In this document: positions 11,403 to 52,006 of the stretch, in pieces
How the letters are laid out: each line of letters opens with the position of its first letter
Numbering within the stretch: the stretch's first letter is position 1
Virus record (IMG/VR): IMGVR_UViG_3300045131_002929
Span: 1-64,000 of that record
DNA from: a virus
Strand: one strand, 5' to 3'
DNA: 64,000 nt
Program-made: the position numbers and the translations under genes
The notes under the pieces: model-generated
Databases searched by the model: none
The model's input: only the letters and a program-made list of their open reading frames with translations
What the model was told of the DNA's origin: nothing

Positions 11403-11672
11403 TTAGATTAGAGGTGCCCTGCGCCACTTGCGTCGCTCGACACAAAAGTAAATATAGCCCCCTGAAACGGCCCTGTCGCCCGGTTCGCCGTCCGAGTCGG
11501 GGCGGCGCGGCGCTTTGACGACCCTGGCCACCGCGCCTTCCAGCCGCGGGCAGACGCCTTTCGCGGAGGATGTCGCCAGTCGCGAGGCGGCGGCGCCTTC
11601 GGCCGCCGTCAAATGCAGCGCGAAGCCGGGCTCCGCGTGCGCGACTGGTTTTACCCTCGGCGGCGGTTTCAT
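11403..11672 (-). CDS. Hypothetical small basic protein
   Basis: The product has 89 residues. This frame was chosen over an overlapping one because its ATG overlaps the stop of the upstream gene by four bases, a coupling seen repeatedly in this cluster, and because it reads as an ordinary protein ending GGYIYFCVERRKWRRAPLI. It is rich in Ala, Arg and Pro. No family was recognised. A TATATTTA sequence inside its 3' end could be a promoter for the next gene. Confidence 0.45.
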   Translation of the reverse strand: MKPPPRVKPVAHAEPGFALHLTAAEGAAASRLATSSAKGVCPRLEGAVARVVKAPRRPDSDGEPGDRAVSGGYIYFCVERRKWRRAPLI

Positions 11673-18231: not shown

Positions 18232-19072
18232 TCGTAGCTCCTGATGTTTCTAGCAGCCTTGGTTCCGCCGGACCCGCGTCCAGCGCTCCCGAGGCCATTT
18301 TTATTCCGCCCGATATGCCTGCCAGCACGTCCGCGATTTCCGATGCCGCCTTCGGCATGTCCGATTTGTCGGACTTGGACCCCGACAAAGCCACACTAAA
18401 GCGTTGAACCTCCATCGGATCCGACGCCGACACGCTCAAGGCCTCCCACGATTTGCTCCATACATACAGCGACCGCAGATTGCGGCCGTCGTTGTCCAGC
18501 CAGTCCTTGTCGGCCGCCGTCATCTTGGATCTGTCGAGGATGATGCGCCGGAATCTATCCACGCCGCCGGCCACAGCTATCTGTTTATAGCCGATCGACG
18601 TGAACATGCTATGTTCATAAGCCTTCAAATACACATGCAGCAACGCTTTCTGCGACGCGATGACCAGTTCGTCCTCCACGTCGTAGAAGCATTCCAGATA
18701 AGTCTGGGCGAGGCCTTTTGGACAAGCCAGATCCCGCGCGATCGCGGCGGGCTTGGCGCCGCCCAGGGCCAGCGCCTCCATGGCGTGCCTGATGTTGTCA
18801 GGCCTGCGGGACTCCTTCAACATGAACGCCAAATGCACGAAACCGTGCTTCGACATCAAATAGTTGTCGTCTGACTCTATCTTGGCCTTGCTGACCATTC
18901 TGTCCATGAGGTAGGCGGTAAGCCTCCTCAGCGTCTTGTCCTCGTTCTCTTTGAATTGTACGGTCTTGTTCTTGCCTTTTTTGGCCAAGGCGGCCAGTTT
19001 AACGGCCTTTTGATGCCGCCAATCTGGCTCGCGTAGAACAAGAGGCGTCTCAAGCCTGGCGTCCTGCTCCAT
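18224..19072 (-). CDS. Conserved-looking head-block protein with possible helix-turn-helix
   Basis: The product has 282 residues. Residues ~110-140 (GGAKPAAIARDLACPKGLAQ, then TYLECFYDV) have the look of a helix-turn-helix, followed by a helical bundle containing ELVIASQKALLHVYLKAYEH. The C-terminal 60 residues are a low-complexity Ser/Ala tail. It lies between two large head-block genes with little or no spacing. The helix-turn-helix could bind DNA or only be structural. The function was not identified. Confidence 0.55.
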   Translation of the reverse strand: MEQDARLETPLVLREPDWRHQKAVKLAALAKKGKNKTVQFKENEDKTLRRLTAYLMDRMVSKAKIESDDNYLMSKHGFVHLAFMLKESRRPDNIRHAMEALALGGAKPAAIARDLACPKGLAQTYLECFYDVEDELVIASQKALLHVYLKAYEHSMFTSIGYKQIAVAGGVDRFRRIILDRSKMTAADKDWLDNDGRNLRSLYVWSKSWEALSVSASDPMEVQRFSVALSGSKSDKSDMPKAASEIADVLAGISGGIKMASGALDAGPAEPRLLETSGATNG

Positions 19073-19078
19073 TGTGCC

Positions 19079-34998: not shown

Positions 34999-35246
34999 AG
35001 CAGCTGAAGGGCGGGGCCGCCGACGGCAGGCCGGCGCGGACCTTCGACAAGGCCGACCTGGCCAAGGGGCGCGCCGTGGAGCGCGAGCACACGGCCGACC
35101 CGCGGGCCGCGGCCGAGATAGCCAAGGACCACCTGGCCGAGTTCCCGGACTATTACGCCGAGCTGGCGCGGATGGAGGCCAAACTGGAGCGGCGCGAGCT
35201 GAACAAGCGCGCATATCTGCTCGGCTACCTAAGGCGGGACCGCTGA
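34992..35246 (+). CDS. DUF5661-like small protein
   Basis: The product has 84 residues. The segment DLAKGRAVEREHTADPRAAA, followed by EIAKDHLAEFPDYYAELARM, fits the conserved pattern of DUF5661: 'L-x-x-G-x-x-x-E-x-E-H-T', then 'I-A-x-D-H-L-x-E-x-P-x-Y-Y'. The biochemical function of that family is not known to me. The gene overlaps both neighbours (seven bases upstream; TGATG with the giant protein downstream), so it is co-translated with the adhesin operon. Confidence 0.7.
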   Translation: MVEQLKGGAADGRPARTFDKADLAKGRAVEREHTADPRAAAEIAKDHLAEFPDYYAELARMEAKLERRELNKRAYLLGYLRRDR

Positions 35247-38200
35247 TGGCGCCCAAACTCAATTTCAAACCGCACGGCCGCGGCCTGCACCTGGACGCGG
35301 CCTCGAAGGCCCGGGCCACGCGCGTCGTCGAATCGGGCGGCGCGCTGATGTCGCCCGCGCTTTTCGGCGTGTACAAGCCGGCCGCAGTGCCCGCCTCTAA
35401 ATCCGCGTCGGGCGCCGAAGGCCAGTGGGCCGTGGACGAGAACTACTACTACTGGAACGCAGGCGGCCGCTGGCATAGGTCGGCGCTGGCCGCTTGGAGC
35501 CCGGAACTGTTCGGCTCGAGCAGCAGCAGCAGCAGCACAGGCGGCGAAAGCTTCTCGTCGGACAGCAGCTGGGGCACCTCCAGCAGCTCGAACAGCTCCA
35601 GCAGCTCGTCGCTTTCCGACTTGTCAAGCCTGAGCTCCAACTCCTCCAGCTCGTCGAACTCCTCCAGCTCGTCCAGCCAGTCGAGCTCCTCAAGCTCGTC
35701 CAGCAAGTCCAGCCAGTCGAGCTCCTCAAGCTCGTCCAGCCGCGGCGACGACTGCGAATGGATCCAGCGCTCGCCGCCTAAAGGCCCGCCGGCGCCGGGA
35801 CTCTGGTCGGCCTGCGCCATGAGCCGCGGCGGCAGGCTGCGCGCGGCGGCTGAGTATGGCGGCCGCATATGGACGTCCACGGACCACGGCGTGAGCTGGC
35901 AGGGCCGCGGATGGGCCAGCGGCGGCGCCATAGGCGACCTGCCCAAGGATCCGAACACGACGCCCTACGACATGGCGCGGCAATGGTGCCTGCTGACGGC
36001 GGCCGACGACGACAGCCGGCTGGTGGCCGCCGAGGACGGCGGCTTGATATGGGTCAGCACGGACTGCGGCATGCACTGGGCCGCGGGCACGGGCCTGGCG
36101 CCGCGCGAGTGGCGCGGGCTGGCGCTGCGCACCACGGACGGCGTGCGGCTGGCGGCCTTGGCCCTGGACGGCACGCTGGCCCTATCCTCGAACGGCGGGC
36201 AGTCGTGGACCGAATCGGCCGGACCCTGCGTCAACGCCTACGCGCTGGCCGCCGCGGCGGGCGCGACCGGGTCGAACGACATACTGGCCGTGGCCGGCTC
36301 GCCAGGCTACGTGCACATATCCCAGGACTCGGGCGCGACGTGGTCGGCCAGGGAGTCGCTGGACAAGCGCGACTGGCGCGGCCTTGCCATGGACGACGAC
36401 GGCCTTGTGCTGTACGCCTGCGCCGATAAGGAGCACTGCTGGAAATCGCTGAACGGCGGCGTGGCGTGGTCGAAGCTGGAGTCGCTGGGAAGCGGCGACT
36501 GGTCCGACGTGGCATGCGGGCCGGACGGCTCCTGCCTGATGCTGGGCGAGAACGCGGGCGCGCTGCGCGTCAGCTACGACTACGGCGGTAGCTGGCGGCG
36601 CATGGCGGCCGTGCAGCAGGACAACCTGAGCAGCTCCAGCGACGCCGTGAACGGCTGGACCGGCGTGGCCATGTCGGGCACCGGCTTCTACCTGATGGCC
36701 TGCGCGTACGGCGGCGGCGTCTGGACGTACGGATGCCTGAGCTCCACATCCTCGTCCTCCCAAGGCGACGCGTGCGCCTGGGTGGAGCGCTGGCAGCTGG
36801 GCACGCACCTTTGGCGCGCCGTGGCCTACTCGCCGCGCGGCGACCGCTGCGTGGCCGTCGGGCTCGGCGTCGGCGTGTGGCTGGGCGAGTTCCATGGCAC
36901 GCGCTGGAAGGTGTGGCCCGCCCCGCTGCAGCCCGGCCTGCCGCCCGCCTACGCCTCGCAGTCCGGCTCGCCGGAGAACCCCAACATGGACTACAGCAGC
37001 TCGAGCAGCTCGAGCAGCTCGCTGTCGTCGGAGCAGAGCAGGGCCACGAAGGGCTGGAACTGCTGCGCCATAAGCGCGGACGGATCGGTGGCCCTTATAG
37101 GCCAGGACGGCGGCAGCCTGCAGATTACGAAGACCTTCGGCGCCAGCTGGACCGTGGCCGCGGGGATAGCCCGCTGGTCGAGCTGCTCCATATCGGAGAA
37201 CGGCAACAAGATGATAGCCGGCACCAACGGCGGCCGCGTGTGGATCTCGCAGGACAAAGGCACCACATGGGTCGAGCAGACGCGCCTGCCTAGGACGCGC
37301 TGGCTGGCCGTGCTTATGGAGGGCGACGGCCGCAGGGCCTTCGCGGCCAGCAGCATCGGCATGATCTACGGCCTGGGCCTGCGCGACTGGTTCGAATCCA
37401 GCAGCTCCAGCTCCAGCTCGGGATCCGCCGACGACCCGGTGGTGACGCTCGCCGGCCTGCCGCCAGCCAAGACCAACAATAGAACGGCGGCCGTCACCGT
37501 GCTGAGCGGGCCCGACATAGGCCGCGGCCTGGTCACGCATTACGGCTATTCGGTGGACGGCGGCGAATATGAGTTCGAAGTGCCGCTGGCCGAGCCCCTG
37601 CTGCTGGCCAACCTTTCCGAAGGGCCGCACAAACTACGCGTGGTCGGCCGTTACCAGTACGACCTGCACGGCAATACGGGCGGGTATGAGGGGATCGACC
37701 ACCCGCTGGAGCATTCGTGGGCCGTGGACACCGTGCCGCCGCAGGCCGTCACCCTGACCGGGATCTCGCTCGCGCTGGCCAACAGCTCGACGGCCAACAT
37801 CACGGTGCACGCCGCCGCCGACGTGGTCGGCTACCTATGGCGGCTGGACGACGGCCCGTGGGTGGACGACGTGGTGCCGATCGGCGCGCCGCTGATCCAG
37901 CTGACGGGCCTTGCCGAGGGCCGCCATGTGGTGCACGTCAAAGGCGTGGACGCGGTCGGCAACTGGCAGGCGGCCCCCACCGTGACCGACAGCGCGGCCT
38001 GGACCGTGGACACGGTGCCGCCGGCCTACGTGGCCCTTACAGCGCCCGCCGCGCTCGTCACGAACTCGACAGTGGCCGCCTTCACCGTCAGCGGCGCGGT
38101 CGACGTGGTGGCGTACAAGTGGCGGCTGGACGCGGGCGCATGGGGCAACGAGGTGGCCATATCCAGCCCGGTCATAAGCCTAGCCGGCCTGGCCGAGGGC

Positions 38201-38974
38201 GTCCACCAGCTGTTCGCGCTGGGCCGCGACGCCGCCGGCAACTGGACGGCCGCGGAAGCCGCCAGCCAGCAGTGGACGGTCGACCTGACCCCGCCCGCGG
38301 CCACGGTGGCGGGCTACCCGGTCGGACCGGTCAACTACGCGTCCACCAACATAGCCGTGGGCGGCGCCGGCGTGGTGTCGTACCAATACAAAGTCAACGC
38401 GGCCGGCACGTATACGGCCGACATACCCGTAGGCACGCCGCTCGTGGCCACCGGACTGGCCAACGGCTTGAACAGGATCTACGTCCGCGGCAGGGACGCC
38501 GCCGGCAACTTGCAGCCCGCCGCGAGCGCCACGCAGACCGGCGAATGGACCGTGGACACCACGCCGCCGCCAGCCGTGACGCTGACGGGCGGCTTGACGG
38601 GCCTGACGACCGCGAAGGCCACCGTCTTCACAGTCGCCGCCGACGCTGACGTGGCCGCCTACAAATGGGAACTGTTCACGAACGGGACCGGCCACGGCCT
38701 GAGCCAGGCCATACCCATATACCTGACCGACTCCATCCACATACTCGACACGATATCGGAGGGCGAGCATTACATTAGGGTCATAGGCTATGACCTGGCG
38801 GGCAACCCGCAGCCGACGCCCACCATAAGCCAAACCTGGACGCTGGACACGACGGCGCCCGTGGCGCAGCTCAGCGGGGTGCCCGTAGGGGCCACATCGA
38901 CGCGCGGCGCCACCGTGACCGTAGGCGGATCAGGGGTCGTCAAATACAAATACGAGCTGGTGTACCATGTTTAG
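35246..38974 (+). CDS. Giant adhesin-like fibre protein 1: serine tracts, Asp-box propeller, Ig-like repeats
   Basis: The product has 1242 residues. Residues ~1-88 are a unique N-terminal domain. Residues ~90-166 are an extended serine-rich tract. Residues ~170-720 hold at least eight Asp-box motifs of sialidase or BNR type (for example STDHGVSW, SQDSGATW, SQDKGTTW), probably one or two propellers, with smaller serine runs near 500, 581-597 and 716-728. Residues ~730-1205 are five Ig-like repeats ending W-T-V-D-T-x-P-P. The final ~37 residues are the first half of a sixth repeat, ending YKYELVYHV. The other half begins the next protein. No catalytic sialidase residues were recognised, so a binding or structural role is inferred. 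Confidence 0.8.
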   Translation: MAPKLNFKPHGRGLHLDAASKARATRVVESGGALMSPALFGVYKPAAVPASKSASGAEGQWAVDENYYYWNAGGRWHRSALAAWSPELFGSSSSSSSTGGESFSSDSSWGTSSSSNSSSSSSLSDLSSLSSNSSSSSNSSSSSSQSSSSSSSSKSSQSSSSSSSSRGDDCEWIQRSPPKGPPAPGLWSACAMSRGGRLRAAAEYGGRIWTSTDHGVSWQGRGWASGGAIGDLPKDPNTTPYDMARQWCLLTAADDDSRLVAAEDGGLIWVSTDCGMHWAAGTGLAPREWRGLALRTTDGVRLAALALDGTLALSSNGGQSWTESAGPCVNAYALAAAAGATGSNDILAVAGSPGYVHISQDSGATWSARESLDKRDWRGLAMDDDGLVLYACADKEHCWKSLNGGVAWSKLESLGSGDWSDVACGPDGSCLMLGENAGALRVSYDYGGSWRRMAAVQQDNLSSSSDAVNGWTGVAMSGTGFYLMACAYGGGVWTYGCLSSTSSSSQGDACAWVERWQLGTHLWRAVAYSPRGDRCVAVGLGVGVWLGEFHGTRWKVWPAPLQPGLPPAYASQSGSPENPNMDYSSSSSSSSSLSSEQSRATKGWNCCAISADGSVALIGQDGGSLQITKTFGASWTVAAGIARWSSCSISENGNKMIAGTNGGRVWISQDKGTTWVEQTRLPRTRWLAVLMEGDGRRAFAASSIGMIYGLGLRDWFESSSSSSSSGSADDPVVTLAGLPPAKTNNRTAAVTVLSGPDIGRGLVTHYGYSVDGGEYEFEVPLAEPLLLANLSEGPHKLRVVGRYQYDLHGNTGGYEGIDHPLEHSWAVDTVPPQAVTLTGISLALANSSTANITVHAAADVVGYLWRLDDGPWVDDVVPIGAPLIQLTGLAEGRHVVHVKGVDAVGNWQAAPTVTDSAAWTVDTVPPAYVALTAPAALVTNSTVAAFTVSGAVDVVAYKWRLDAGAWGNEVAISSPVISLAGLAEGVHQLFALGRDAAGNWTAAEAASQQWTVDLTPPAATVAGYPVGPVNYASTNIAVGGAGVVSYQYKVNAAGTYTADIPVGTPLVATGLANGLNRIYVRGRDAAGNLQPAASATQTGEWTVDTTPPPAVTLTGGLTGLTTAKATVFTVAADADVAAYKWELFTNGTGHGLSQAIPIYLTDSIHILDTISEGEHYIRVIGYDLAGNPQPTPTISQTWTLDTTAPVAQLSGVPVGATSTRGATVTVGGSGVVKYKYELVYHV
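35512..35745 (+). repeat. Serine-codon tract
   Basis: About 78 codons, mostly AGC, TCC and TCG for serine, are broken by Asn, Asp, Leu, Gln and Lys. The DNA is visibly repetitive (AGCTCGTCCAGC, CAGTCGAGCTCC). It encodes an extended low-complexity linker in the first giant adhesin. Confidence 0.9.
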
Positions 38975-41891
38975 CGGCGAGATCGACGTCGGCGTGCCGA
39001 TCATCATACCCTCCGGCTCGCCGGACGGCTCGTACACCGTGCGCGTGGTCGGCTGCGACGCTGCCGGCAACTGGCAGCCGGTGGAGCTGGCCACCGAGCC
39101 GCCCGAGTGGACCGTCTACACCAAGTTCAACATGACCATGGCCACGCCGCTTGGCGTCGGCACGGCCAGCCCCGCCACGGCCCAGTCAGGCCCTGGCGAG
39201 GCGGTGGCCATAAGCGCCTTGGCCGGATCCGGCTACATATTCTCCCGGTGGGTCGCCACGGGACCGGCCACATTCGAGGACTACGAATCCGCCGTGACCA
39301 CGGTCACGCTGGCCGGCGACGCCTCCGTGCGCGCCGTGTTCGGCACGCTGGTCGTGAGCTACACGCTGAACTACTCGGCCCAGGCCCACGGGGCCGTAAC
39401 CGGCGAGGCCGTCCAGGTGGTAGTCCGGGGCGCGGGCGGATCTTCCGTCACGGCTGTGGCCGAAGCCGGCTATCATTTCAGCGGATGGAGCGACGGGGTC
39501 ATGTCTGCCACCCGCGTGGACTCCAACGTCATGGCCAGCATCGCCGTATCCGCGCACTTCGCGCTGGACGCCGCGCTGTACACCGTGATCTTCGCCGCGG
39601 GCGCGCACGGCTCGCTCTCGGGCGACCTGACTCAGTCGGTGGCTTACGGCGACAGCTGCACAAGGGTGTTCGCCCTGTCCGCGACAGGCTACCGATTTTC
39701 CAGATGGAGCGACGGCTCGACCTATTCGTACCTCACGTTGACCGGCGTGACGTGCGACATGACGCTGACCGCTTTCTTCGAGATAGAGACAGGATATAGG
39801 TACTTGAAGTACCAGGCGTCGACGGGCGGCAGCATAGCGGGCAACGCCGACCAGTCGATCCCCACCGACAGCACAGGCTCTCAAGTCACGGCCGTCGCTC
39901 TGGCCGGCTATCACTTCAAAATCTGGAGCGACGGGTCGGCGCGGGCCACCAGGACGGACACTGCCGGCTATGACAAGACGTTCACGGCCTATTTCGAAGT
40001 GAATTTCTTCACCGTGGCCTACGCGGCCACGGATGGCGGCTCCGTGACGGGAACCCTGATCCAGAAGATCAACGCCGGCAGCTTTGGGTCCGAAGTCGTG
40101 GCCACGCCCGACGAAGGGCACCATTTCACCTACTGGAGCGACGGGCTGGCCACGGCCGCACGGACGGAGTACGACGTCACCTACAACATGACGCTGACCG
40201 CCAACTTCCTGCCCGACGCCAGCAACGTCACGCTGGCCTACTCCGCGGGCCTGCACGGCGCGATCGAAGGCGTGGCCACGCAATCCGTGCCCGTTGGCGG
40301 CTCGGGCTCGCAGGTAACGGCGGTTCCGGACGCGGGCTACAGATTCGCCTACTGGGACGACGGCGTGGGCACGGCCGCGCGCACCGACTCGAACGTCATG
40401 TTCGGCAAGGCCCCCACCGCCTACTTCGAACGTTTGAAATACACCCTGGAGTATACGGCGGAATACGGCGGCGAGATCCAAGGGACCACTCTGCAGACCG
40501 TGTCCCCGGGCGGCGACGGCACTTACGTGGCGGCCGGGGCCCATACTGGATACCGTTTCATCAAGTGGTCGGACGGCCTGGCCACAGCGGGCCGCGTAGA
40601 CTGGAACGTGACTTGCAGCTTATCCGTGTCCGCTTTCTTCGATATCATCAAAAGCGCATACGTGCTGACCTACACGGCCGGAATGGGCGGCTCGATATCA
40701 GGCTCGAAGACGCAGCTAGTCGCCAGCGGGGGCACTGGATCCTCTGTGACCGCCATGCCCGCCGCGGGCCATCATTTCGTGATGTGGAGCGACGGGCTGG
40801 CCACAGCCGCCCGGACGGACTCCTTAGTGTACTGCGACAAGGCGCTCACGGCCTACTTCGCCGCCGACTCGGCGGCTTATCTGCTTGCATACGCCACGGA
40901 CGGCAACGGGACGCTGGCGGGCGCCGCGGTCCAGTCCGTAGCGTCCGGCGGCTCCGGCACCGAAGTCGTGGCCGTGGCGAACACGGGATACCACTTCAGC
41001 GGTTGGAGCGACGGGTACGCGCGGGGGGCCCGCACCGACCTGAACGTCAAAATGGATATAACGGCCACGGCCATGTTCGCGCTGGGCGGCCAGAACTGCG
41101 TGGTGACATATTCCGCCGGGCCATGCGGCTCGGTTACCGGAATACTCACCCAGTCGGTGGCCCAGGGCGGCGCGTGCACGGCCGTGACGGCCGTGCCGGA
41201 CTCCGGCTACCACTTCGTGACGTGGAGCGACGGGTCGACGTCGGCCACCAGGACCGACCTAGGCGTGGCCTGCGACCGAACGTACATGGCCGTGTTCGAC
41301 CCGAGCGTGTACACGGCCGACTATAGGGCAGGGCCGAACGGGTCTATCAGTGGATCAGCGCACCAGTTGATATCGCACGGTCACAATGCCAGCTCAGTGA
41401 CGGGCGTGCCTTCAGGTTATTATAGAAAGTCCCACTGGAGCGACGGATACCCGTTGACGGCGAACATGGGCGTGCGCGTAGACCAAGCCGTGGACCACAA
41501 CATAGACGCCGCGATCTACTTCTATCTGCCAACTTACAGCGTCTCAGTCTCCGCGGGGGCAGGCGGCACGGCCACCCCTGACACCGTGGGCGGCGCCATC
41601 GCCATGGCGGGCGAAACCGTGGTCGCGCTGCGCGCCGAGCCCGCCGTCGGATACGTGTTCAGCAAGTGGACGGTGCTGCGCGGCAGCGCGCCCGCTGCCC
41701 CTACGGCTGCGGACACTACGGTCACGGTGGGCGCCGACACCTCGATAAGGGCCGACTTCGCCGTCCTCGTGCCGAGCGCCGCCTTCGTAAGCGGTGTTCC
41801 GACCGGAACCACGAACGTGCAAGGCGGCACAGTCGTCGTCGGTGGGTCGAACGTGGTATCGTATAAGTATGAAATAGTCAAAGTCAGTTAG
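38967..41891 (+). CDS. Giant adhesin-like fibre protein 2: InlB-type repeats between two half Ig-like domains
   Basis: The product has 974 residues. The first ~50 residues (MFSGEIDVGVPIIIPSGSPD onward) are the second half of an Ig-like repeat whose first half ends the preceding protein. About ten repeats of ~70 residues follow, with the pattern Y-x-A-x-x-G-x-x-x-G... GYHFSGWSDG... T-A-Y-F, the divergent InlB B-repeat seen in bacterial surface proteins, plus a variant repeat at each end. The last ~38 residues are the first half of another Ig-like repeat, ending YKYEIVKVS. The ATG overlaps the upstream gene by eight bases with only a weak Shine-Dalgarno, so translation may be coupled or frameshifted from it. 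Confidence 0.75.
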   Translation: MFSGEIDVGVPIIIPSGSPDGSYTVRVVGCDAAGNWQPVELATEPPEWTVYTKFNMTMATPLGVGTASPATAQSGPGEAVAISALAGSGYIFSRWVATGPATFEDYESAVTTVTLAGDASVRAVFGTLVVSYTLNYSAQAHGAVTGEAVQVVVRGAGGSSVTAVAEAGYHFSGWSDGVMSATRVDSNVMASIAVSAHFALDAALYTVIFAAGAHGSLSGDLTQSVAYGDSCTRVFALSATGYRFSRWSDGSTYSYLTLTGVTCDMTLTAFFEIETGYRYLKYQASTGGSIAGNADQSIPTDSTGSQVTAVALAGYHFKIWSDGSARATRTDTAGYDKTFTAYFEVNFFTVAYAATDGGSVTGTLIQKINAGSFGSEVVATPDEGHHFTYWSDGLATAARTEYDVTYNMTLTANFLPDASNVTLAYSAGLHGAIEGVATQSVPVGGSGSQVTAVPDAGYRFAYWDDGVGTAARTDSNVMFGKAPTAYFERLKYTLEYTAEYGGEIQGTTLQTVSPGGDGTYVAAGAHTGYRFIKWSDGLATAGRVDWNVTCSLSVSAFFDIIKSAYVLTYTAGMGGSISGSKTQLVASGGTGSSVTAMPAAGHHFVMWSDGLATAARTDSLVYCDKALTAYFAADSAAYLLAYATDGNGTLAGAAVQSVASGGSGTEVVAVANTGYHFSGWSDGYARGARTDLNVKMDITATAMFALGGQNCVVTYSAGPCGSVTGILTQSVAQGGACTAVTAVPDSGYHFVTWSDGSTSATRTDLGVACDRTYMAVFDPSVYTADYRAGPNGSISGSAHQLISHGHNASSVTGVPSGYYRKSHWSDGYPLTANMGVRVDQAVDHNIDAAIYFYLPTYSVSVSAGAGGTATPDTVGGAIAMAGETVVALRAEPAVGYVFSKWTVLRGSAPAAPTAADTTVTVGADTSIRADFAVLVPSAAFVSGVPTGTTNVQGGTVVVGGSNVVSYKYEIVKVS

Positions 41892-41899
41892 GAGCGGCC

Positions 41900-44800
41900 A
41901 TGGCCTGGAGCGACGAAATACCTGTCGGGACGCCGATAACCATCCCCTTGGACCTGGTGGACGGAGTGTACCGCATCCTGGTGATAGGTAAGGCCCCCGC
42001 GGGCAACTGGCAGGCCACCGCGCTGACCAGTTCCAACTGGACGCTGGACACGACGGCGCCCACGGCTGTGATCGGGTCGCCGCCGGCCAGTCTCACAAAC
42101 CTCACCTCTTTCTCGATCGCTATAACGGGCGCAGGGGTAACCCAGTACAAATACGCATTGAACGGCGGCGCGTACAGCCAGCCCAGTAGCATAAGCTCGC
42201 GCATCGCCCTAAGCGGGCTCGCCGATGGAGCTTACTCGCTGGACGTGGTCGGGCGCGACGCGGTCGGCAACTGGCAGACGACGCCCACGACCTACAGTTG
42301 GGTAGTGGACACCACGGCCGCCGTGGCCGTGCTCTCCAATACCCCGCAGCCCGTGACCCAAGAAACTTCGGCGACTATCTCCGTGGACGGAACCGACGTG
42401 GTGGCCTATATGTATAAGCTGAATGGCGGAGCATGGTCCGCCTCCACCCCGGTGGCCACGCCTATAGCTCTGGCTAACCTTACTGAGGGGACCTATTCGC
42501 TATCCGTCAAAAGCGTGGACGCGGCCGGCAACTGGCAGGTGGCGCCCACGACCTACAGTTGGGTAGTGGACACCACGGCCCCCATCGCGGTGCTGTCCAA
42601 CGCTCCACAGCCCGTGACCGCGGCGACTTCGGCGACTATATACGTGGGCGACGACGTGGTGGCCTATATGTATAAGCTGAATGGCGGAGCATGGTCCACT
42701 TCCACCCCGGTGGCCACGCCTATAACCCTGTCGAACCTTACTGAGGGGGCTTACACGCTGGACGTGGTCGGGCGCGACGCGGCCGGCAACTGGCAGGTGG
42801 CGCCCACGACCTACAGTTGGGTAGTGGACACCACGGCCCCCATCGCGGTGCTGTCCGGAGTTCCGCAGCCGCTATTCCTAACGATTGATGTTAGTCATGC
42901 GCATATATACGTGGGCGGAACCGACGTGGTGGCCTATATGTATAAGCTGAATGGCGGAGCATGGTCCACTTCCACCCCGGTGGCCACGCCTATAGGCGTG
43001 GACCTTTACCACGGAGCTTACTCTCTGGAAGTGGTCGGCTGCGACGCGGTCGGCAACTGGCAGACGACGCCCACGACCTACAGTTGGGTAGTGGACAAGC
43101 CGCTGTTTGCTGTGCTGTCCGGCGCTCCGGAGGAACATACCAAAGAGACTTCGGCGACTATATACGTGGGCGGCGACGACGTGGTGGCCTATATGTATAG
43201 GCTGAATGCCGGGTTATGGTCCGCCTCCACCCCGGTGGCCACGCCTATAACCCTGTCGAACCTTACTGAGGGGGCTTACACGCTGGACGTCAAAGGCTTG
43301 AATCCGGAGAGCAGCTTGCCGACGTGGAACCGCCTGCACTACTGGGTGGTGGACACGACGGCGCCCACGGCTGTGATCTGGTCGCCGCCGGCCAGTCTCA
43401 CAAACCTCACCTCTTTCTCGATCAATATAACGGGCGCAGGGGTAACCCAGTACAAATACGCGTTGAACGGCGGCGCGTACAGCCAGCCCATTAGCATAAG
43501 CTCGCACATCGCCCTAAGCGGGCTCGCCGATGGAGCTTACTCTCTGGAAGTGGTCGGCTGCGACGCGGCCGGCAACTGGCAGACGACGCCCACCACGGCC
43601 AGCTGGACGGTCGACGCCACGGCCCCCATCGCGGTGCTGTCCAACGCTCCACAGCCCGTGACCGCGGCGACTTCGGCGACTATCTCCGTGGGCGGAACCG
43701 ACGTGGTGGGATATGCGTATAGGCTGAATGGCGGAGCATGGTCCAATTACGTCCCGGTGGCCACGCCTATAACCCTGTCGAACCTTGCTAAGGGGGCTTA
43801 CTCGCTGTACGTGGCCGGCCACGACGCGGCCGGCAACTGGCAGGTGGCGCCCACGACCTACAGTTGGGTAGTGGACGAGGCGCTCACGGCCGTGCTCGGC
43901 GGCAGCGTGCCGAGCGGGGTCTACACCCAGTATGTCCAAGGGATAAGCGTGGGCGGCTACGGCGTGACTCACTATAAATATTCGCTCAACGGCGGGGCCT
44001 ACACCGACGAGGCGCCTATAAGCGCGGCTATAGATCTGCCTATGTTGCCGGACGGCGAATACACGCTGGACGTCATAGGCAGGGGGCTGGCGGGGAACTG
44101 GCTGGGCACCCCCACCCACGCCGCCTGGTCTTTACTGATACCGCCGCCTGTGGCTACGGTAAGCGGCATCCTCAACCCTTCTCTCAGCACTGTAAACGCC
44201 TCCATAGGCGGAGCAAGGGTGGCCGCGTTTAACTACAAGCTAGACCAGATGACTACTATAGGTCCCGTCGTCGCAAGCGGGTACGGGCTCAGTCTGAACA
44301 TCGAGCCCAACGGGCCGCATCAGTTGTCTGTGTGGGGAATCGACCTCGCAGGCCGGGTGCAGACTACGCCTACGGTTGTAGAGTGGACCGTGGACTCCGC
44401 CCAGCCTGTATTCAACCTAGTCTATGACGCCGGCGGCGCGAACGGCACCGTTCCGTTCGATAACAAATGGTATTTTATGAACAGCAAGGTGTATCTAGCT
44501 AGCGCGTCCACTTTGAACTACCCCTCTAAAAAGTTCAACAGCTGGTTTATGTCCGACTACGGCTCTAGGAATCCCGGTGAATACATAATGACGCCTACCG
44601 CAGCGCCCCAAGGCGGGCATATTATTTTCTGCCAAGCCCAGTGGACCATTTTTAATTGGTATGCCGCTAATTCCAGTATTCTGTATATCACCGGTGTTGT
44701 CAATAACGTGCCCCAGAGCGGAACCGTCACAATACCCTATTCCTTAGGGCACCAAGCTGTAACTGTAATTGGCAACAATTGTTTTAAAGATATGTCGGCC

Positions 44801-45298
44801 ATATCCAGTGTGGTTTTGAACTGCACCTCGCTTAGCGAAATACAAAGCCAGGCGTTCGCCGGCTGCAGCGGAATGACTTCCATAACCACGCCTAACTCCC
44901 TGACCCGCTTAGGCGTTAGCGCGTTCGAAGGGTGCTCCAGCCTGACGGCCTTTACGATCCCTGTCGACTTGACCGTTATTCAAAACCGCGCCTTCTACGG
45001 CTGCTCCAGTATATCTTCAATCAATATAGGCGCCACGAATGTTAGCTTGGTAGGCGAGGCCGCCTTCCAAGGCTGCGCCAGCTTGAGCGACTTGTCTTTC
45101 GGTACGACGCTGCAGGTTGTAGGCGCGAACGCTTTCACGGGCACTGGCATCACCCATGCACACTTCAAAGGCAACGCGCCGTCCATTCAATCCACATCCT
45201 ACCCGGCAGGCACCGTGCTGCATTATGTTCCAGGCAAGACCGGCTGGACTAATCCGATGGCAGGTTTCACGACCGTAGGCGACGAAACACCCTACTAG
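41900..45298 (+). CDS. Giant adhesin-like fibre protein 3: Ig-like repeats, InlB-type repeat, BspA-type LRR
   Basis: The product has 1132 residues. It opens with MAWSDEIPVGTPITIP, the second half of an Ig-like repeat begun at the end of protein 2. About nine Ig-like repeats of 85-95 residues follow (core VAYMYKLNGGAWS ... DAAGNWQ ... SWVVDTTAP), several nearly identical in DNA. Residues ~830-915 are an InlB-type repeat. The final ~210 residues are BspA-type leucine-rich repeats (AFAGCSGMTSITTP, AFEGCSSLTAFTIP, AFYGCSSISSINIG). TTAGGAG overlaps the upstream stop and serves as ribosome-binding site. BspA-type LRRs usually mediate surface adhesion. Confidence 0.8.
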   Translation: MAWSDEIPVGTPITIPLDLVDGVYRILVIGKAPAGNWQATALTSSNWTLDTTAPTAVIGSPPASLTNLTSFSIAITGAGVTQYKYALNGGAYSQPSSISSRIALSGLADGAYSLDVVGRDAVGNWQTTPTTYSWVVDTTAAVAVLSNTPQPVTQETSATISVDGTDVVAYMYKLNGGAWSASTPVATPIALANLTEGTYSLSVKSVDAAGNWQVAPTTYSWVVDTTAPIAVLSNAPQPVTAATSATIYVGDDVVAYMYKLNGGAWSTSTPVATPITLSNLTEGAYTLDVVGRDAAGNWQVAPTTYSWVVDTTAPIAVLSGVPQPLFLTIDVSHAHIYVGGTDVVAYMYKLNGGAWSTSTPVATPIGVDLYHGAYSLEVVGCDAVGNWQTTPTTYSWVVDKPLFAVLSGAPEEHTKETSATIYVGGDDVVAYMYRLNAGLWSASTPVATPITLSNLTEGAYTLDVKGLNPESSLPTWNRLHYWVVDTTAPTAVIWSPPASLTNLTSFSINITGAGVTQYKYALNGGAYSQPISISSHIALSGLADGAYSLEVVGCDAAGNWQTTPTTASWTVDATAPIAVLSNAPQPVTAATSATISVGGTDVVGYAYRLNGGAWSNYVPVATPITLSNLAKGAYSLYVAGHDAAGNWQVAPTTYSWVVDEALTAVLGGSVPSGVYTQYVQGISVGGYGVTHYKYSLNGGAYTDEAPISAAIDLPMLPDGEYTLDVIGRGLAGNWLGTPTHAAWSLLIPPPVATVSGILNPSLSTVNASIGGARVAAFNYKLDQMTTIGPVVASGYGLSLNIEPNGPHQLSVWGIDLAGRVQTTPTVVEWTVDSAQPVFNLVYDAGGANGTVPFDNKWYFMNSKVYLASASTLNYPSKKFNSWFMSDYGSRNPGEYIMTPTAAPQGGHIIFCQAQWTIFNWYAANSSILYITGVVNNVPQSGTVTIPYSLGHQAVTVIGNNCFKDMSAISSVVLNCTSLSEIQSQAFAGCSGMTSITTPNSLTRLGVSAFEGCSSLTAFTIPVDLTVIQNRAFYGCSSISSINIGATNVSLVGEAAFQGCASLSDLSFGTTLQVVGANAFTGTGITHAHFKGNAPSIQSTSYPAGTVLHYVPGKTGWTNPMAGFTTVGDETPY

Positions 45299-45312: not shown

Positions 45313-46671
45313 ATGGCCTACTCAGAATCATCCATGAGCTCCCTGTCCTCGGACTCCACCGAGCTGCTGAACTCCACCAGCTCGGACTCCTCAGCCTCCT
45401 TCGCCATGGGCAAGGGCGCGGCTGGCAGCTTCGCCTGGTGGCCCACGCGGGCCCCCGTGGCGGACTGGCGCGCCATGGCCGCCAGCCACGACTGCTCGCT
45501 CATACTGGCCGCCGCGGACCGCGAGGCCGGCGGCGGGCTGCACGTGAGCCAGGACGGCGGCCACACCTGGCTGCCCTGCTGGAGCTCCTACCCTAGAAGC
45601 TGGCGGGCCGTGGCCGTGTCGCGCAGGGGCGAGATGATGGCCGCCTGCGACTCCATGGGCATGATCTACGCCACCCACGCCGCCTACGACTCGTCGTCCA
45701 CGCCCGGCGACGCCTGGCACTGGAAGGCGCAGCCCTCCGCGGGCGAGCGCGACTGGCGCGGGGTGGCCATAGGCGAGGAAGGCAATTTCCTGGTGGCCGT
45801 GGCGGCCGGCGGGCGGCTGTGGACCAAGTACTGCCAGGACAACGACATGAGCACCTCGAGCGTCAGCGTGGCCGGCGACAGCAGCTCCTCCGCGAACGAC
45901 TGCGTAGTCTCGTTCAACAGCAAGGGCGGGGCCGCCGTAGAGCCGCTGCGCGTGAACGCCGGCTACTCCATAGCGCTGGGCGAATGGCCGAGGCCGACGC
46001 GGGCCGCGCGCTCGTTCGGCGGGTGGTGCTCCGACTTCCAGTGCCTGACTTTGTTCGACGAGTCGGCCGTCGTCAACTACGACCTGACTTTGTTCGCCAA
46101 GTGGAACAAAGCCACGGGCGCGGCCTTCCACGCCAACGGCGGCGGCGACATACCGGATCAGAGCGCGACGCTTGTCAACGGGCAGTATTACGTGACGGCG
46201 CCGCCGGCGCCGGTAAGGGCCGGCCACACCTTCCAAGGGTGGTATGCTGACGAACTGCTGCAAGGGGCCTTATTCGACTTCGCGGCGCCCATATCAGGAT
46301 TCCGCGACCTGTACGCCAAGTGGCAGATCGACACCTACGCCGTGACTTTCAACAGCAACGGCGGCACGGCCGTGGGGCCGCAGTCGGTGGTGTTCAACAA
46401 CCAAGTAGCCAAGCCGGCCGACCCCGTGTTCGCCGGCTACAGGCTGATCGGGTGGTTCCTAGGGTCGGCGGAATCGTCCTACGATTTCAATTCGGGGGTC
46501 CAAGGTGCTATGGTTCTTAAGGCGAAGTGGACCATATACATTCCAAGCGCAGCCAGCGAGAACCTGTTCGACGACGGGGCGCAGAACCTTATGATGTCCG
46601 CCGGCGACGACCACGAGATAGAGATGAACGAGGCCATCGCGCTGTCCCAAGGCGGCTGCGAGCCTTTCTAA
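45313..46671 (+). CDS. Adhesin-like protein: serine-rich start, Asp-box domain, InlB-type repeats
   Basis: The product has 452 residues with AGGGGGG before the ATG. The N-terminus is Ser-rich (SSMSSLSSDSTELLNSTSSD). Residues ~40-180 hold an Asp-box segment (SQDGGHTW) related to that of the first giant protein. Residues ~195-410 are three InlB-type repeats (VVSFNSKGGAAVEPLRVNAG, AAFHANGGGDIPDQSATL, AVTFNSNGGTAVGPQSVVFN). The end is acidic (DDHEIEMNEAIALSQGG). It is probably another fibre subunit of the same appendage. Confidence 0.7.
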   Translation: MAYSESSMSSLSSDSTELLNSTSSDSSASFAMGKGAAGSFAWWPTRAPVADWRAMAASHDCSLILAAADREAGGGLHVSQDGGHTWLPCWSSYPRSWRAVAVSRRGEMMAACDSMGMIYATHAAYDSSSTPGDAWHWKAQPSAGERDWRGVAIGEEGNFLVAVAAGGRLWTKYCQDNDMSTSSVSVAGDSSSSANDCVVSFNSKGGAAVEPLRVNAGYSIALGEWPRPTRAARSFGGWCSDFQCLTLFDESAVVNYDLTLFAKWNKATGAAFHANGGGDIPDQSATLVNGQYYVTAPPAPVRAGHTFQGWYADELLQGALFDFAAPISGFRDLYAKWQIDTYAVTFNSNGGTAVGPQSVVFNNQVAKPADPVFAGYRLIGWFLGSAESSYDFNSGVQGAMVLKAKWTIYIPSAASENLFDDGAQNLMMSAGDDHEIEMNEAIALSQGGCEPF

Positions 46672-47007: not shown

Positions 47008-50000
47008 ATGCTCAAGCAGGCCTCCAAGCGCAGGGCCGGCGACGGCAGGCCTGTGCCCCATTTCGACGTCGCCGACATGGGCGCGAGCTCGTGGTCGGAC
47101 AAGACGACCAAGCTGCTGCTCCACTTCGACGGGTCCATGCTGGACGGGTCGCTCTACTCAAGGTCCGTGCTGCCGGCGGGCGACGCGCGCCTGGACTCCA
47201 CGTCGTCCAGCCTGGGCGGCTCGTCGCTGCGCGTGACCGGCGCCTCGCATCTGGACGTCATGCTGGGACCGGACGCGCTGCCGGGTTCGCGCAGCCTGTC
47301 CATCGAGGGCTTCTTCCTGGTGGACTCCGTGAGCTCGACGTTCAGGGTGTGGGAGTGGTTCCAGGACGCCGCGAACAACCTGGCGCTCGACTACGTGGCC
47401 AACACGGGGTGGAAGGTGAGCAGGCTGGACGCGGGGACGCAGACGACTCTGCTGATAGGGTCGGCGGCCGCCATCCAGACGTGGCTCCACGTCGCCGTGA
47501 CCCGGGTCGGGACCACTTGGCGCCTACTGGTCGACGGGGTCGAACAGGCCGCTTTGGCCTACCAGTGGTCACCCGTGTGGACGTTCGGCTCCACCTTCAG
47601 GCTGGGCCGCAACTACGCCGCCGCGTCGGCTATGGTAGGCAACGTCGACGAGGTCAGGCTGGTCGTGGGCGGGCCCGTGGTGGCTTCCGTGCCTACGGCC
47701 AGGTATGGCGTCGCCGAGCTGCTGACCGGCAGGGGCGCGCAGCTCGTCGACATTAACGGCGCCGGAGTCTACTACTGGGGCGTCTCGCCCGAGGGCGGCG
47801 GCGAACCCGTCGCCTGCAGGTGCGGCGACTACCTGCTGGTCTTCGGCCGGCGCCTGACGCGCGGCGGCTCGATCTTCGAATGCGTCGTCGACACGATGGC
47901 GCTGCAATGGCTGGGCAACGTCAGCTGGGGCGGCTACGACTACGAGCCCTGGCGCGGCTACGTCGAAGCGGTCGGCCAATGCCTGGTCGTAGGCGCCAGG
48001 GCGCTAATGGTGCGCTCCGCCGGCAACCCTGGGCTTATGCTTGGCGACGCGCTAAGTTCGTACTCCGTGAACGGTTACGCCGCGGTAAGCAATAGCGTCG
48101 TCAGGGATAACGACTGCTTCTACGTGGGCAACGCCGGATCCATACGCATGGCCAAATTGGGCGGCGGCGCGTTGTTCACATGGTTCGACGGCATATCGAC
48201 CACTTATCTCACGCACATGCCGGCGGCCTGCATAACCGCCGCGGGCGCCGACAACGGGGTGCGTGTGGCCGCGTTGCGCTCTGGGTCGCAGTACGGCTCC
48301 GGGTGCCAGGCGCTGGTGGTAGGGCGCGGCGGGCTGGTCTCGGCCTACTCGTCGCTCATCGTGACGCTGACGGATCCGATCACCCGGCTGTCCGCGGACG
48401 TGAGCCTGGCCCAGCTGCCTGAGCTTTTCGTGGGCGTGTCCGCGTTCTGTTGGAAGGGCGTGTGCTCCGCCACCCATGTCTACCTGGCGCTGAACTCGCT
48501 CAACGGGTCGCCCGCCGGGATAATCGTCAGGCTGCCGATGGCGGATTGGTCGCTGGCCGGCGTGGAGGCCTTGCGCCTGCACTCGGTCGACGCGCGGCTG
48601 GTCAACATATCGGGCCTGGCCTATGACGGCCGGCACGTGTACTGCCTCGCGTCGGGCCTTGCCGGCGGCGCGCTGGCCAAGGTCGACGAGCTTAACTTCA
48701 CAGCGTCCGGCGTGGAGGTGGTGGAGCTGGGCCCCAACAGCTGGGTGTGGTCCGAGCTTGTGGACTTCGATTCCTACTTGTGCGCCGTGTCCAGGGCGCG
48801 GGCGGTCAAGATTCCCTGCCGCGTCCACTCCGCCGCCTATTTCGAATGTTCCGACGCAGAGCTGCCCTACCCGCTGCCTATTTCGACGGTATCGCTGCTG
48901 CAGATGACGGGCGGTGCGGCTTTCGACGAGACGCTGCGCGGATCGCGCGTGACATCCACGAACGTGGCCTTCGCCGCGTCGGGCGGCAAGTTCACAGGCA
49001 AGGCCTCCATCGTGGGCACTAATTCCTTGCTGACGCTGTACCCGAGCCCGGCCGGCCCGAACTTCCCCATATGCCGCCCCGGCGACTACAACACGGTGGG
49101 CGCCTACACGCTGGACTTCTGGCTGAAGTTCGACGCGCTGCCGACGGACTACAGAACGGTGTTCAACACAGGCGTCGAGGACTATGGGTTTATGGCCCTT
49201 TATTTTAAGCCCGGGAGTTCCCCCAAGATGATTTGCAAAACACATTACGAAGGCGAGTCTCGTAAGCTGCTTGCTGATACCCCGGTCGGCACGTGGTTCC
49301 ATGTGGAGTTTTCCGTGGAGAACCGCGTTGGCCGAAACAGTGGAGCGCGGCTATTTTTGAACGGTAAATCGCAGGTAGACGTTTCTCTGACGGTGTCGCC
49401 TGTTTTAGCCTTGGCCGGCGGCGGCGCGGCTATGAGCTATGGCGGCAGCTTGTTCCTAGTGGCCAGCGGCGGGAATTACTCCGCCTTGTCGGCGCCCAGC
49501 GCCAACATAACCACGCTGGGCGTGTCGCCCAATGGGCAGTTCATGCTCGCGGCCGTGTCCGGCGGCAGCATGTACGCGTCCATCGACGGCGGGGCCAGCT
49601 GGACGACTAGGTCCGCGGCGGGCGTGTTGTCGTGGACTAACCTGATATGCCGCGACGACGGCAGCTGCGTGGCTAGCGTGTGGAACAACGCGACGTACTA
49701 TGAGTCTTCCAATTTTGGCGAATCGTGGTCCGCCAAGTCCGTCGGCACAACCACCACCCGCATAGTCATGTCGTCGGATGGTAGGTACAGGCTTGGCGCC
49801 GGGTCGACTGATGGATGGTATTACGGCAATCCCACCATGCACATATCTTCCGATTACGGCGCCACATGGTCCACTTATAATTACGGCTCAGTCGGCGCAT
49901 TTACGAATAGCGTGGCAATGTCCGCGTCCGGCGCCGTCATGGCCGGCGCGGCGGCGTTGTACGCGGCGAATCTGCCTACCCACGAACGCTACGTGTATAT

Positions 50001-50502
50001 CAGCGTGAACTACGGCGCCACATGGACGCAGCTTACGGGGGCAGGCGGCCGTAACAGCTGGACATGCTGCGCGGTGTCGGCGGACGGCGCGAAGGCAGCC
50101 TTCGCGGCTGTGGGCTCGCGGCTATGGATCTACACCGTGGCGACCGGAACGTTCGACGAGATCACCGACGTGCCCGAGAAGCCGGCTTGGAACTCCGTGG
50201 CGTTGTCCGCGGACGGCTCCAAGGCTTACGCGTTGTCCGGCGACGGCTATCTGTACCGAGTCGATGTGACGGCTGGCACCTTGGAGCCGTCGAACGGCGT
50301 TTTGAATTTTCAGGCCATAGTCGGAGCGGCCGTAGCAAACTATTGGGGGGTGAATCAGTGCGGCATCGGCTACCACAATCAATTCTTCTTCGGCAACGCC
50401 TGGCAAGCCGCCTGGCCCGGCATGCACGTGTCGGACATAAGGCTGACGAACGACGTGCTGCACACCGCCGATTTCACGCCGCCAGCGCAGAAGACGCTTT
50501 GA
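47008..50502 (+). CDS. Giant LamG/Asp-box fibre protein
   Basis: The product has 1164 residues. Residues ~28-235 are a LamG/concanavalin-like domain (KLLLHFDGSMLDGS, then VGNVDEVRLVVG). Residues ~240-620 are beta-rich and may form a propeller. A second LamG begins near 640 (YTLDFWLKFDALPTDYRTVF, LFLNGKSQVDVSL). It is interrupted at ~795-1105 by an Asp-box module (SIDGGASW, SSNFGESW, SSDYGATW, SVNYGATW) and resumes with CGIGYHNQFFFG ... HVSDIRLTNDVLHTADFTPP, the standard last strands of a phage LamG. Both domain types are expected to bind carbohydrate or protein ligands. It belongs to the adhesin operon. Confidence 0.75.
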   Translation: MLKQASKRRAGDGRPVPHFDVADMGASSWSDKTTKLLLHFDGSMLDGSLYSRSVLPAGDARLDSTSSSLGGSSLRVTGASHLDVMLGPDALPGSRSLSIEGFFLVDSVSSTFRVWEWFQDAANNLALDYVANTGWKVSRLDAGTQTTLLIGSAAAIQTWLHVAVTRVGTTWRLLVDGVEQAALAYQWSPVWTFGSTFRLGRNYAAASAMVGNVDEVRLVVGGPVVASVPTARYGVAELLTGRGAQLVDINGAGVYYWGVSPEGGGEPVACRCGDYLLVFGRRLTRGGSIFECVVDTMALQWLGNVSWGGYDYEPWRGYVEAVGQCLVVGARALMVRSAGNPGLMLGDALSSYSVNGYAAVSNSVVRDNDCFYVGNAGSIRMAKLGGGALFTWFDGISTTYLTHMPAACITAAGADNGVRVAALRSGSQYGSGCQALVVGRGGLVSAYSSLIVTLTDPITRLSADVSLAQLPELFVGVSAFCWKGVCSATHVYLALNSLNGSPAGIIVRLPMADWSLAGVEALRLHSVDARLVNISGLAYDGRHVYCLASGLAGGALAKVDELNFTASGVEVVELGPNSWVWSELVDFDSYLCAVSRARAVKIPCRVHSAAYFECSDAELPYPLPISTVSLLQMTGGAAFDETLRGSRVTSTNVAFAASGGKFTGKASIVGTNSLLTLYPSPAGPNFPICRPGDYNTVGAYTLDFWLKFDALPTDYRTVFNTGVEDYGFMALYFKPGSSPKMICKTHYEGESRKLLADTPVGTWFHVEFSVENRVGRNSGARLFLNGKSQVDVSLTVSPVLALAGGGAAMSYGGSLFLVASGGNYSALSAPSANITTLGVSPNGQFMLAAVSGGSMYASIDGGASWTTRSAAGVLSWTNLICRDDGSCVASVWNNATYYESSNFGESWSAKSVGTTTTRIVMSSDGRYRLGAGSTDGWYYGNPTMHISSDYGATWSTYNYGSVGAFTNSVAMSASGAVMAGAAALYAANLPTHERYVYISVNYGATWTQLTGAGGRNSWTCCAVSADGAKAAFAAVGSRLWIYTVATGTFDEITDVPEKPAWNSVALSADGSKAYALSGDGYLYRVDVTAGTLEPSNGVLNFQAIVGAAVANYWGVNQCGIGYHNQFFFGNAWQAAWPGMHVSDIRLTNDVLHTADFTPPAQKTL

Positions 50503-50527: not shown

Positions 50528-52006
50528 ATGACAGATGGCGTGATCTACTTCAACGTCGGCACCAAGTGCCTCCACAGGCTGGCCGTGTCGCTGCGCTCAA
50601 TGCGCAGAATACACTCAGGGCCCTGCGCCGCACTTTGCGCCGACGAATGCCCGCGATGGTTCGCGGAGCTGGCCCGCGCGCTCGACGTCGAACTCCGCGC
50701 CTTCGATCCTGAAGGGCTGCCCCCGCTGGTATTGAAGGCGCGGCTGCACCGCCACAGCCCTTTCGACCGCTCGCTCTTCATAGACGCGGACACGCTGGTG
50801 ACCGGCCGCTTCGACGAGCTTTTCGACCTGATAGGCGAATATGGCTTCGCCGTGGGCCGCTTCGCCGGATGGCGCACCAAGGGCCGGACCATCGCCAGCC
50901 GCATAGCGGCCATGGCCCCGGCGTGCGGGCCGGCCATGGTGGCCGCCGCCTTGGCCTACGGCCCGGCTGTGAACACCGGGGTGTTCGGCTTCACGAAGGA
51001 TTCGAAATTTTTAGAGCCGTGGGCGGACCTTACGCTGCGCGCCCACGAGCTCGGGTGCTCCCGCATACCGGACGAGCTCGCGTGCCAGATGCTGCTGCCC
51101 GCCATCCGCAGCGCGACTTTCGACGAACGCTACGGCGAGTCGGTGAAATTCGGCAAGCTGGGTCCGACCACCCGCATAGTCCATTACCACGGCCGCAAGC
51201 ACGCGCAGGGCTTCCCGGCATGCGGCGAGTGGAAGCGGGCCTACTGGGAGCTCATGGCCGAATGCACGGACGAGGTCCGGGCCGGCCTGGCCGCGGACCT
51301 CGGCGACAAGACGCTGCGCAACTACCGGCGGCGCGAGGCGCTGACCTTCGTCACGGCGGTGGATCCGGGCTATCTGGCCAGCCTGCGGGCCAACTTTCCG
51401 CTTATGGCGGAGGTCGCCGGAATAGCTGGCGAGCCTTGGATCTGCTATGTGAACGGGATTCCCATCGACGACCCGCGGCTTGACTTCCTGAAGGGCCGCG
51501 CCCTTGTGCGAGCCTGGGACTTCGACGCGCCCACCCAGCGCGAGCGGATGCTGACCTGTTTCGTGAAGGCCGCGCCGTTCGACGTCAAGACGCCGCGCTG
51601 GGTCAAGGTGGACGCTGACGTCCGGCCGAGTGGCGCCGCTTTCAAATTCGAGGCGGGCTGGCGCGGCGCGGCGCTCGTAGGCCACCGCTGGCATTACACC
51701 AAGCCTGGCCGATGGCTGCGCGGCCTGGAGGAATGGGCGGACGCCCACCCAGGTTTCGCGGGCAGCGCCCGGCTGTTCACGGCGGGCCATCTGGTGGACG
51801 CCGACGCGCAGCTTCGCTACGGCCACCCCAGGATAGCCTCGTTCATGTGCGCGCACGACACGGCGTTCACGCGTAGATGCGCCGAGCTGGCGGGCCCGGG
51901 GCGGCTGCCGGTGCCCAGCCACGACACTTTCCTATGGTACTGCGCGGCGCGGCTGGGCGAGCCTATCGCCCGTACCAACTTCAAGAAGAAGGGCTTCCAC
52001 CCATGA
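50528..52006 (+). CDS. Two-domain glycosyltransferase-like protein (GT8-type first domain)
   Basis: The product has 492 residues. Residues ~1-240 resemble a GT8-type GT-A fold (YFNVGTKCLHRLAVSLRSMR, then a metal-binding DxD in SLFIDADTLVTG near residue 86 and AVNTGVFGFTKDS). Residues ~275-490 look like a second GT-A domain, with RWVKVDADVRPSG near 357 as its DxD. The weak CAGAG site and A-run precede the ATG. It overlaps the next glycosyltransferase by four bases (ATGA). A transferase acting on the serine-rich virion proteins encoded just upstream is an attractive inference; modifying the host surface is the alternative. Confidence 0.65.
   Translation: MTDGVIYFNVGTKCLHRLAVSLRSMRRIHSGPCAALCADECPRWFAELARALDVELRAFDPEGLPPLVLKARLHRHSPFDRSLFIDADTLVTGRFDELFDLIGEYGFAVGRFAGWRTKGRTIASRIAAMAPACGPAMVAAALAYGPAVNTGVFGFTKDSKFLEPWADLTLRAHELGCSRIPDELACQMLLPAIRSATFDERYGESVKFGKLGPTTRIVHYHGRKHAQGFPACGEWKRAYWELMAECTDEVRAGLAADLGDKTLRNYRRREALTFVTAVDPGYLASLRANFPLMAEVAGIAGEPWICYVNGIPIDDPRLDFLKGRALVRAWDFDAPTQRERMLTCFVKAAPFDVKTPRWVKVDADVRPSGAAFKFEAGWRGAALVGHRWHYTKPGRWLRGLEEWADAHPGFAGSARLFTAGHLVDADAQLRYGHPRIASFMCAHDTAFTRRCAELAGPGRLPVPSHDTFLWYCAARLGEPIARTNFKKKGFHP

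Follow-up and report, generated by a model that had tools for sequence, protein, structure and literature searches.

Two consecutive gene boundaries divide an Ig-like repeat at the same hairpin in a gene array of an uncultured virus

Three successive plus-strand genes of an uncultured virus (hereafter P1, P2 and P3) together bear an array of Ig-like repeats, and both boundaries between them (junctions J1 and J2) fall inside a repeat, at the same hairpin, leaving a first half at the end of one gene and the matching second half at the start of the next. The joint reading of sequence quality, frameshift simulation, start signals, loop turns and conservation indicates that the two boundaries are real and are not recent accidents. 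The interpretation that we favour, and to which we give about even chances, is that the three products would be separate chains of one long virion appendage, serving as base, shaft and tip, joined by complementation between the halves of the split Ig domains.

The stretch of DNA analysed (the window) is 64,000 bases long and corresponds to bases 1-64000 of a virus record totalling 146,617 bases. It harbors a major-head-protein match and, downstream of P1-P3, a tail-sheath match (56570-59236); the virus is thus a tailed phage, probably of the contractile type. Its relative G002 shares 82% identity in the major head protein. The features of the three genes are listed in Table 1; the open reading frames and the end peptides quoted in a preliminary description of this DNA were borne out on re-reading of the sequence. 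Regarding the Pfam Big_13 profile (cut-off 27 bits), P3 passes at 80.3, whereas P1 stays below at 22.7. Among P1-P3, the leucine-rich region is present only at the end of P3. No Rfam match at gathering cut-offs was retrieved within the window.

Table 1. Position and content of the genes P1-P3, of their half domains and of the two junctions in the window.
Feature	Coordinates	Strand	Description
P1	35246..38974	+	1242 aa: anchor domain, Ser-rich linkers, BNR-like repeats, five intact Ig-like repeats, terminal first half
P1 N-terminal anchor domain	35246..35515	+	Also present in relative G002 (and G001), on two giant proteins rich in Ser
Five intact Ig-like repeats of P1	37436..38848	+	
P1C	38849..38971	+	Ig-like repeat first half (strands A-B-C), ends ...YKYELVYHV; profile positions 1-37
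Junction J1	38967..38974	+	8-base overlap ATGTTTAG of P2 start with P1 stop; partial ribosome-binding site upstream
P2	38967..41891	+	974 aa: Ig second half, ~11 InlB-B-type repeats, Ig first half
P2N	38967..39122	+	Ig-like repeat second half (C'-E-F-G), MFSGEIDVGVPI...; profile positions 42-86
P2C	41769..41888	+	Ig-like repeat first half, ends ...YKYEIVKVS; profile positions 2-37
Junction J2	41889..41902	+	TAG stop, AGGAG ribosome-binding site overlapping the stop, then ATG
P3	41900..45298	+	1132 aa: Ig second half, nine intact Ig-like repeats, C-terminal leucine-rich region
P3N	41900..42049	+	Ig-like repeat second half, MAWSDEIPVGTPI...; profile positions 39-87
Nine intact Ig-like repeats of P3 (Big_13)	42050..44395	+	
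BspA-type leucine-rich region (LRR_5)	44837..45199	+	P3 end, E 4.8e-45; candidate tip

The claim that both gene boundaries split an Ig-like repeat at the same loop was confirmed by a profile of the intact repeats (87 positions), which detected the four complementary halves independently: at 38849-38959 and 38970-39116 for J1, and at 41769-41876 and 41897-42049 for J2. Both cuts sit between strand C (Y-x-Y-x-L) and strand C', i.e., in the same C-C' hairpin, and the C-termini of P1 and P2 run for exactly five codons from the common YKYE to the TAG; the bases at J2 read TAG-GAGCGGCC-ATG. Any out-of-frame tail at the cuts is at most about four residues long, and no part of the domain is lost. The preliminary description had located the cuts in an NGG/AWS hairpin loop; both are indeed in the C-C' loop, but they do not fall cleanly within NGG/AWS, the loop being about 17 bases longer at J2 and about two bases shorter at J1 than in intact repeats. 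These differing lengths imply that the two cuts are not base-for-base copies of each other. Moreover, most intact repeats carry at the loop a turn of the N/D-G type (N or D followed by G-rich residues), and neither junction has one in any frame. P1, P2 and P3 lie in frames 2, 0 and 2, respectively; readthrough of the TAG codons would therefore be unable to join them and was ruled out.

A common origin of J1 and J2 in a single split unit was first suspected and then dropped. P1C and P2C are each other's best match, and an extra residue is common to P2N and P3N, but it is also found in intact P1 repeats; the trees of the halves do not support a descent of both junctions from one by duplication.

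The preliminary description had argued that one such cut might be due to chance and that two identical ones suggest design. The shared position is weak evidence by itself, since we estimate the coincidence at about 1 in 10 for an 87-residue repeat and repeat-mediated recombination could create both cuts at one site; what gives the argument weight is that the loop itself contains the signals for stop, start and ribosome binding. When single random frameshifts were simulated at any place in the intact arrays, 1.2% of the events gave a stop within four codons together with an ATG within six. ATG is scarce in these arrays (3.4% of positions), and in 13 out of 14 intact repeats the homologous loop has none within six codons. 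The predicted ribosome-binding duplexes at the starts of P2 and P3 (-7.0 and -6.5 kcal/mol, respectively) are better than the genome median of -5.8 over 94 genes, and about 15% of all plus-strand ATGs attain -6; these probability tests were picked after the finding had been seen, and their product is not to be read as a probability. The 8-base overlap is also used by another gene pair of the same phage.

As for conservation, the four halves (profile scores of 36.5 for P1C, 38.7 for P2N, 26.0 for P2C and 43.6 for P3N) are conserved as well as the halves of intact repeats, the P1C score lying within the range of the latter. Of 30 codons compared between P1C and P2C, two are identical, 18 differ synonymously and 10 change the amino acid. 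GC3 declines gradually from P1 to P3 with no step at the junctions, and a recent import of a whole gene at either of them is thus unsupported. Within P3, GC3 falls to 0.55 at 44600-44900, in the leucine-rich part, versus 0.85-0.95 in P1; the tip may hence be a more recent import.

According to the complementation reading, P1, P2 and P3 would be translated separately with coupled initiation, through the overlap at J1 and the ribosome-binding site overlapping the stop at J2. P1 would be fixed to the virion through its N-terminal anchor; its terminal A-B-C half would be completed by the C'-E-F-G half opening P2, and the C-terminal half of P2 would likewise be completed by the half that opens P3. 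The resulting order would be a base (anchor, BNR and Ig repeats), a shaft (InlB-type repeats) and a tip (Ig array and leucine-rich region), the whole assembly possibly acting as a host- or surface-binding fibre. The tail sheath gene lies downstream of this candidate appendage, and P1 shares its N-terminal domain with fibre-like proteins of G002. In G001/G002 this domain forms the N-terminus of two giant Ser-rich proteins (1877 and 1105 aa); the present genome has it only in P1, alone among P1-P5, and in a small minus-strand gene of the head region (11409-11618, E 3.9e-10). G002 also possesses a short, separate anchor-only frame at 8002-8286. P2 and P3 have no anchor; if they are in the virion, some other element must attach them, most obviously the half domains. 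The head-to-tail complementation put forward in the preliminary description fits this anatomy, with an anchor on P1 only, a half domain on every inner end, a leucine-rich tip on P3 only, conserved halves and good initiation signals, while the binding itself is what we infer from it.

Since P2 bears both types of half, it could join copies of itself besides P1 and P3, giving P1-(P2)n-P3, a polymerising fibre of variable length with a base, a repeatable shaft and an exchangeable tip; we regard this extension as rather improbable. If it held, the split Ig domains would double as plug-compatible recombination points. To our knowledge, phage fibres have their parts connected through trimeric hinges, adaptor proteins or N-terminal anchors; a domain divided between genes, if complementation occurs, would be another way to assemble separately made chains into a very long appendage, and such a connector would let tips be swapped and supply natural split-protein pairs. 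Gene callers and domain scans may list genes of this sort as fragments.

A structure prediction of the joined halves was carried out for J1 as a single fused chain (P1C plus P2N, with one base skipped and TACC read as Y), using a 17-row alignment of the window's own repeats. The fused sequence was predicted as an Ig-like domain (pLDDT 84.8, pTM 0.73), but with less confidence than an intact-repeat control run with the same alignment (pLDDT 96.4); the cut lies at residues 39-40 of the model, just after a strand at 32-37. The model suggests that the two J1 halves can form one domain when fused. The nearest solved structures are the BIg domains of SiiE (PDB 2yn3, 2yn5), a modest match with TM 0.59 and E 1.3e-3, and FN3/PKD-like domains. 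The BIg/Big_13 type is both the best fold match of the model and a sequence match of the repeats; SiiE is a giant bacterial one-chain adhesin, whereas the array described here is spread over three phage genes.

In donor-strand complementation (chaperone-usher and type V pili), an Ig-like domain is made whole by a segment of the adjacent chain, giving rise to a head-to-tail fibre. That process has been compared with uromodulin (PMC7486124). The similarity in principle claimed in the preliminary description holds for the idea of a domain completed by a neighbouring chain (here inferred) in a head-to-tail fibre, but it is a loose one: the pilus domain is short of one strand, filled by the N-terminal extension of the next subunit into a groove, while here, in a phage, the A-B-C/C'-E-F-G split yields two large halves of about three and four strands. 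The P1-P3 system thus resembles donor-strand complementation and is no member of the class. Split, sequence-discontinuous Ig-like domains also occur in the giant RTX adhesins FrhA and MpIBP (PMC10865825), where, however, both halves belong to one polypeptide around an inserted ligand-binding domain; in this phage they are distributed over three genes with their own starts.

The main rival of complementation is gene fission without it, which we consider possible, though unlikely: an ancestral giant fibre gene would have been broken by indels or by repeat recombination, P1 would be a shortened lone fibre, the half domains would have no partner function, and P2 and P3 would be made by reinitiation or be on their way to loss. 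Fibre genes break easily under selection, as in laboratory lambda, where 15 out of 19 selected stf mutants were frameshifts (PMC2762979), and bacterial Ig arrays do break as well; an apparent plain frameshift, with an out-of-frame tail and a restart inside a repeat, is found in a repeat gene of Pontibacter cellulosilyticus (L087:6283-9041). The lack of an anchor on P2 and P3 and the possibility that recombination between repeats placed both cuts alike are also compatible with fission. The lambda stf mutants share with P1-P3 a fibre gene with a broken frame, but they are selected losses, whereas here the reading frames are long and intact, out-of-frame tails are nearly absent, the halves are conserved and each loop holds a stop, a start and a ribosome-binding site. 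No relative with an intact copy was found among the viral contigs searched.

The evolved frameshift that the preliminary description offered as its alternative appears improbable. It would require a +1 shift at J1 and a -1 shift at J2, so that some of the chains would be fused and have their Ig domains complete. J1 has the right geometry for the former, its stop and overlapping frame requiring +1 and the fused loop then being of near normal length, and there is a precedent in SPP1, whose tail protein gp17.1* acquires an FN3 domain through a +1 frameshift (PMC6316719, PMC8718954). Nevertheless, neither junction has a recognised slippery site: the GUU UAG of J1 differs from the CCC-U type of SPP1, and J2, read by eye, has no X XXY YYZ heptamer, needs the opposite shift, which would lengthen the loop by about six residues. 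RNA folding was no better than that of shuffled sequences at J1 (z 0.23) and worse at J2 (z 2.48), and both ATGs have a ribosome-binding site. SPP1 is alike in having an Ig-type domain across a change of frame at a stop codon; there, recoding adds a whole domain, while here the cut is inside one.

That one or both boundaries are indel artefacts within a continuous gene is very improbable: altering the length at both junctions could open the frame, and repetitive DNA known from a single contig misassembles readily, but the check on sequencing error retrieved no frameshift in 16,104 aligned residues versus G002, and, with the canonical turn missing in every frame, an indel alone does not restore a normal repeat.

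That alignment covered 57 ORFs of G002 matched to this genome, only one of which was found in more than one frame, namely the DNA polymerase gene with intron-like insertions (L010:16823-19834, corresponding to about 100823-103834 of the genome). One insertion, of about 1 kb, holds a 225-aa frame that we take to resemble a homing endonuclease; a second one, of about 265 bases, falls just short of the gathering score in its match to a group I intron family (E 1.5e-9).

The comparison with related phages was run, and a profile search of eight related records found no copy of the Ig repeats of P1-P3; the arrangement is thus known from a single genome, which speaks against complementation. Two related records, G005 and G006, have consecutive genes with tandem repeated domains whose boundaries fall between whole domains; a cut inside a domain is therefore no rule of the group. 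Consecutive genes of a tandem domain (LAHKWGL...AWYDA) in related phages (L018:15214-20872 and L019:17329-20609) were rejected as split repeats, the boundary falling between complete domains. Among the viral contigs searched, neither close relatives of P1, P2 and P3 nor matches to the Ig profile were retrieved, and a gapped DNA pattern spanning J1 gave no match; the same profile recovered 30 loci from bacterial genomes. Among 444 adjacent gene pairs scanned in the collected loci, no other clean mid-domain split came to light; the scan flagged J1 but missed J2, where the longer loop interrupts the alignment, although the profile search does find J2. A candidate second split at the same loop (L062) was discarded, its break being a run of N. 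A word search of the open-access literature brought up no article describing consecutive phage genes that share one Ig domain between them.

Downstream of P3, two further giant repeat proteins are encoded (45313-46671 and 47008-50502), also without an anchor, the first opening straight in a Ser-rich linker. After the fibre genes comes a gene (50528-52006) presumably coding for a glycosyltransferase-like protein, as is also the case in G002 (17401-19738); the order of fibre and then sugar-transfer genes is thus shared by the two genomes, though their fibres differ.
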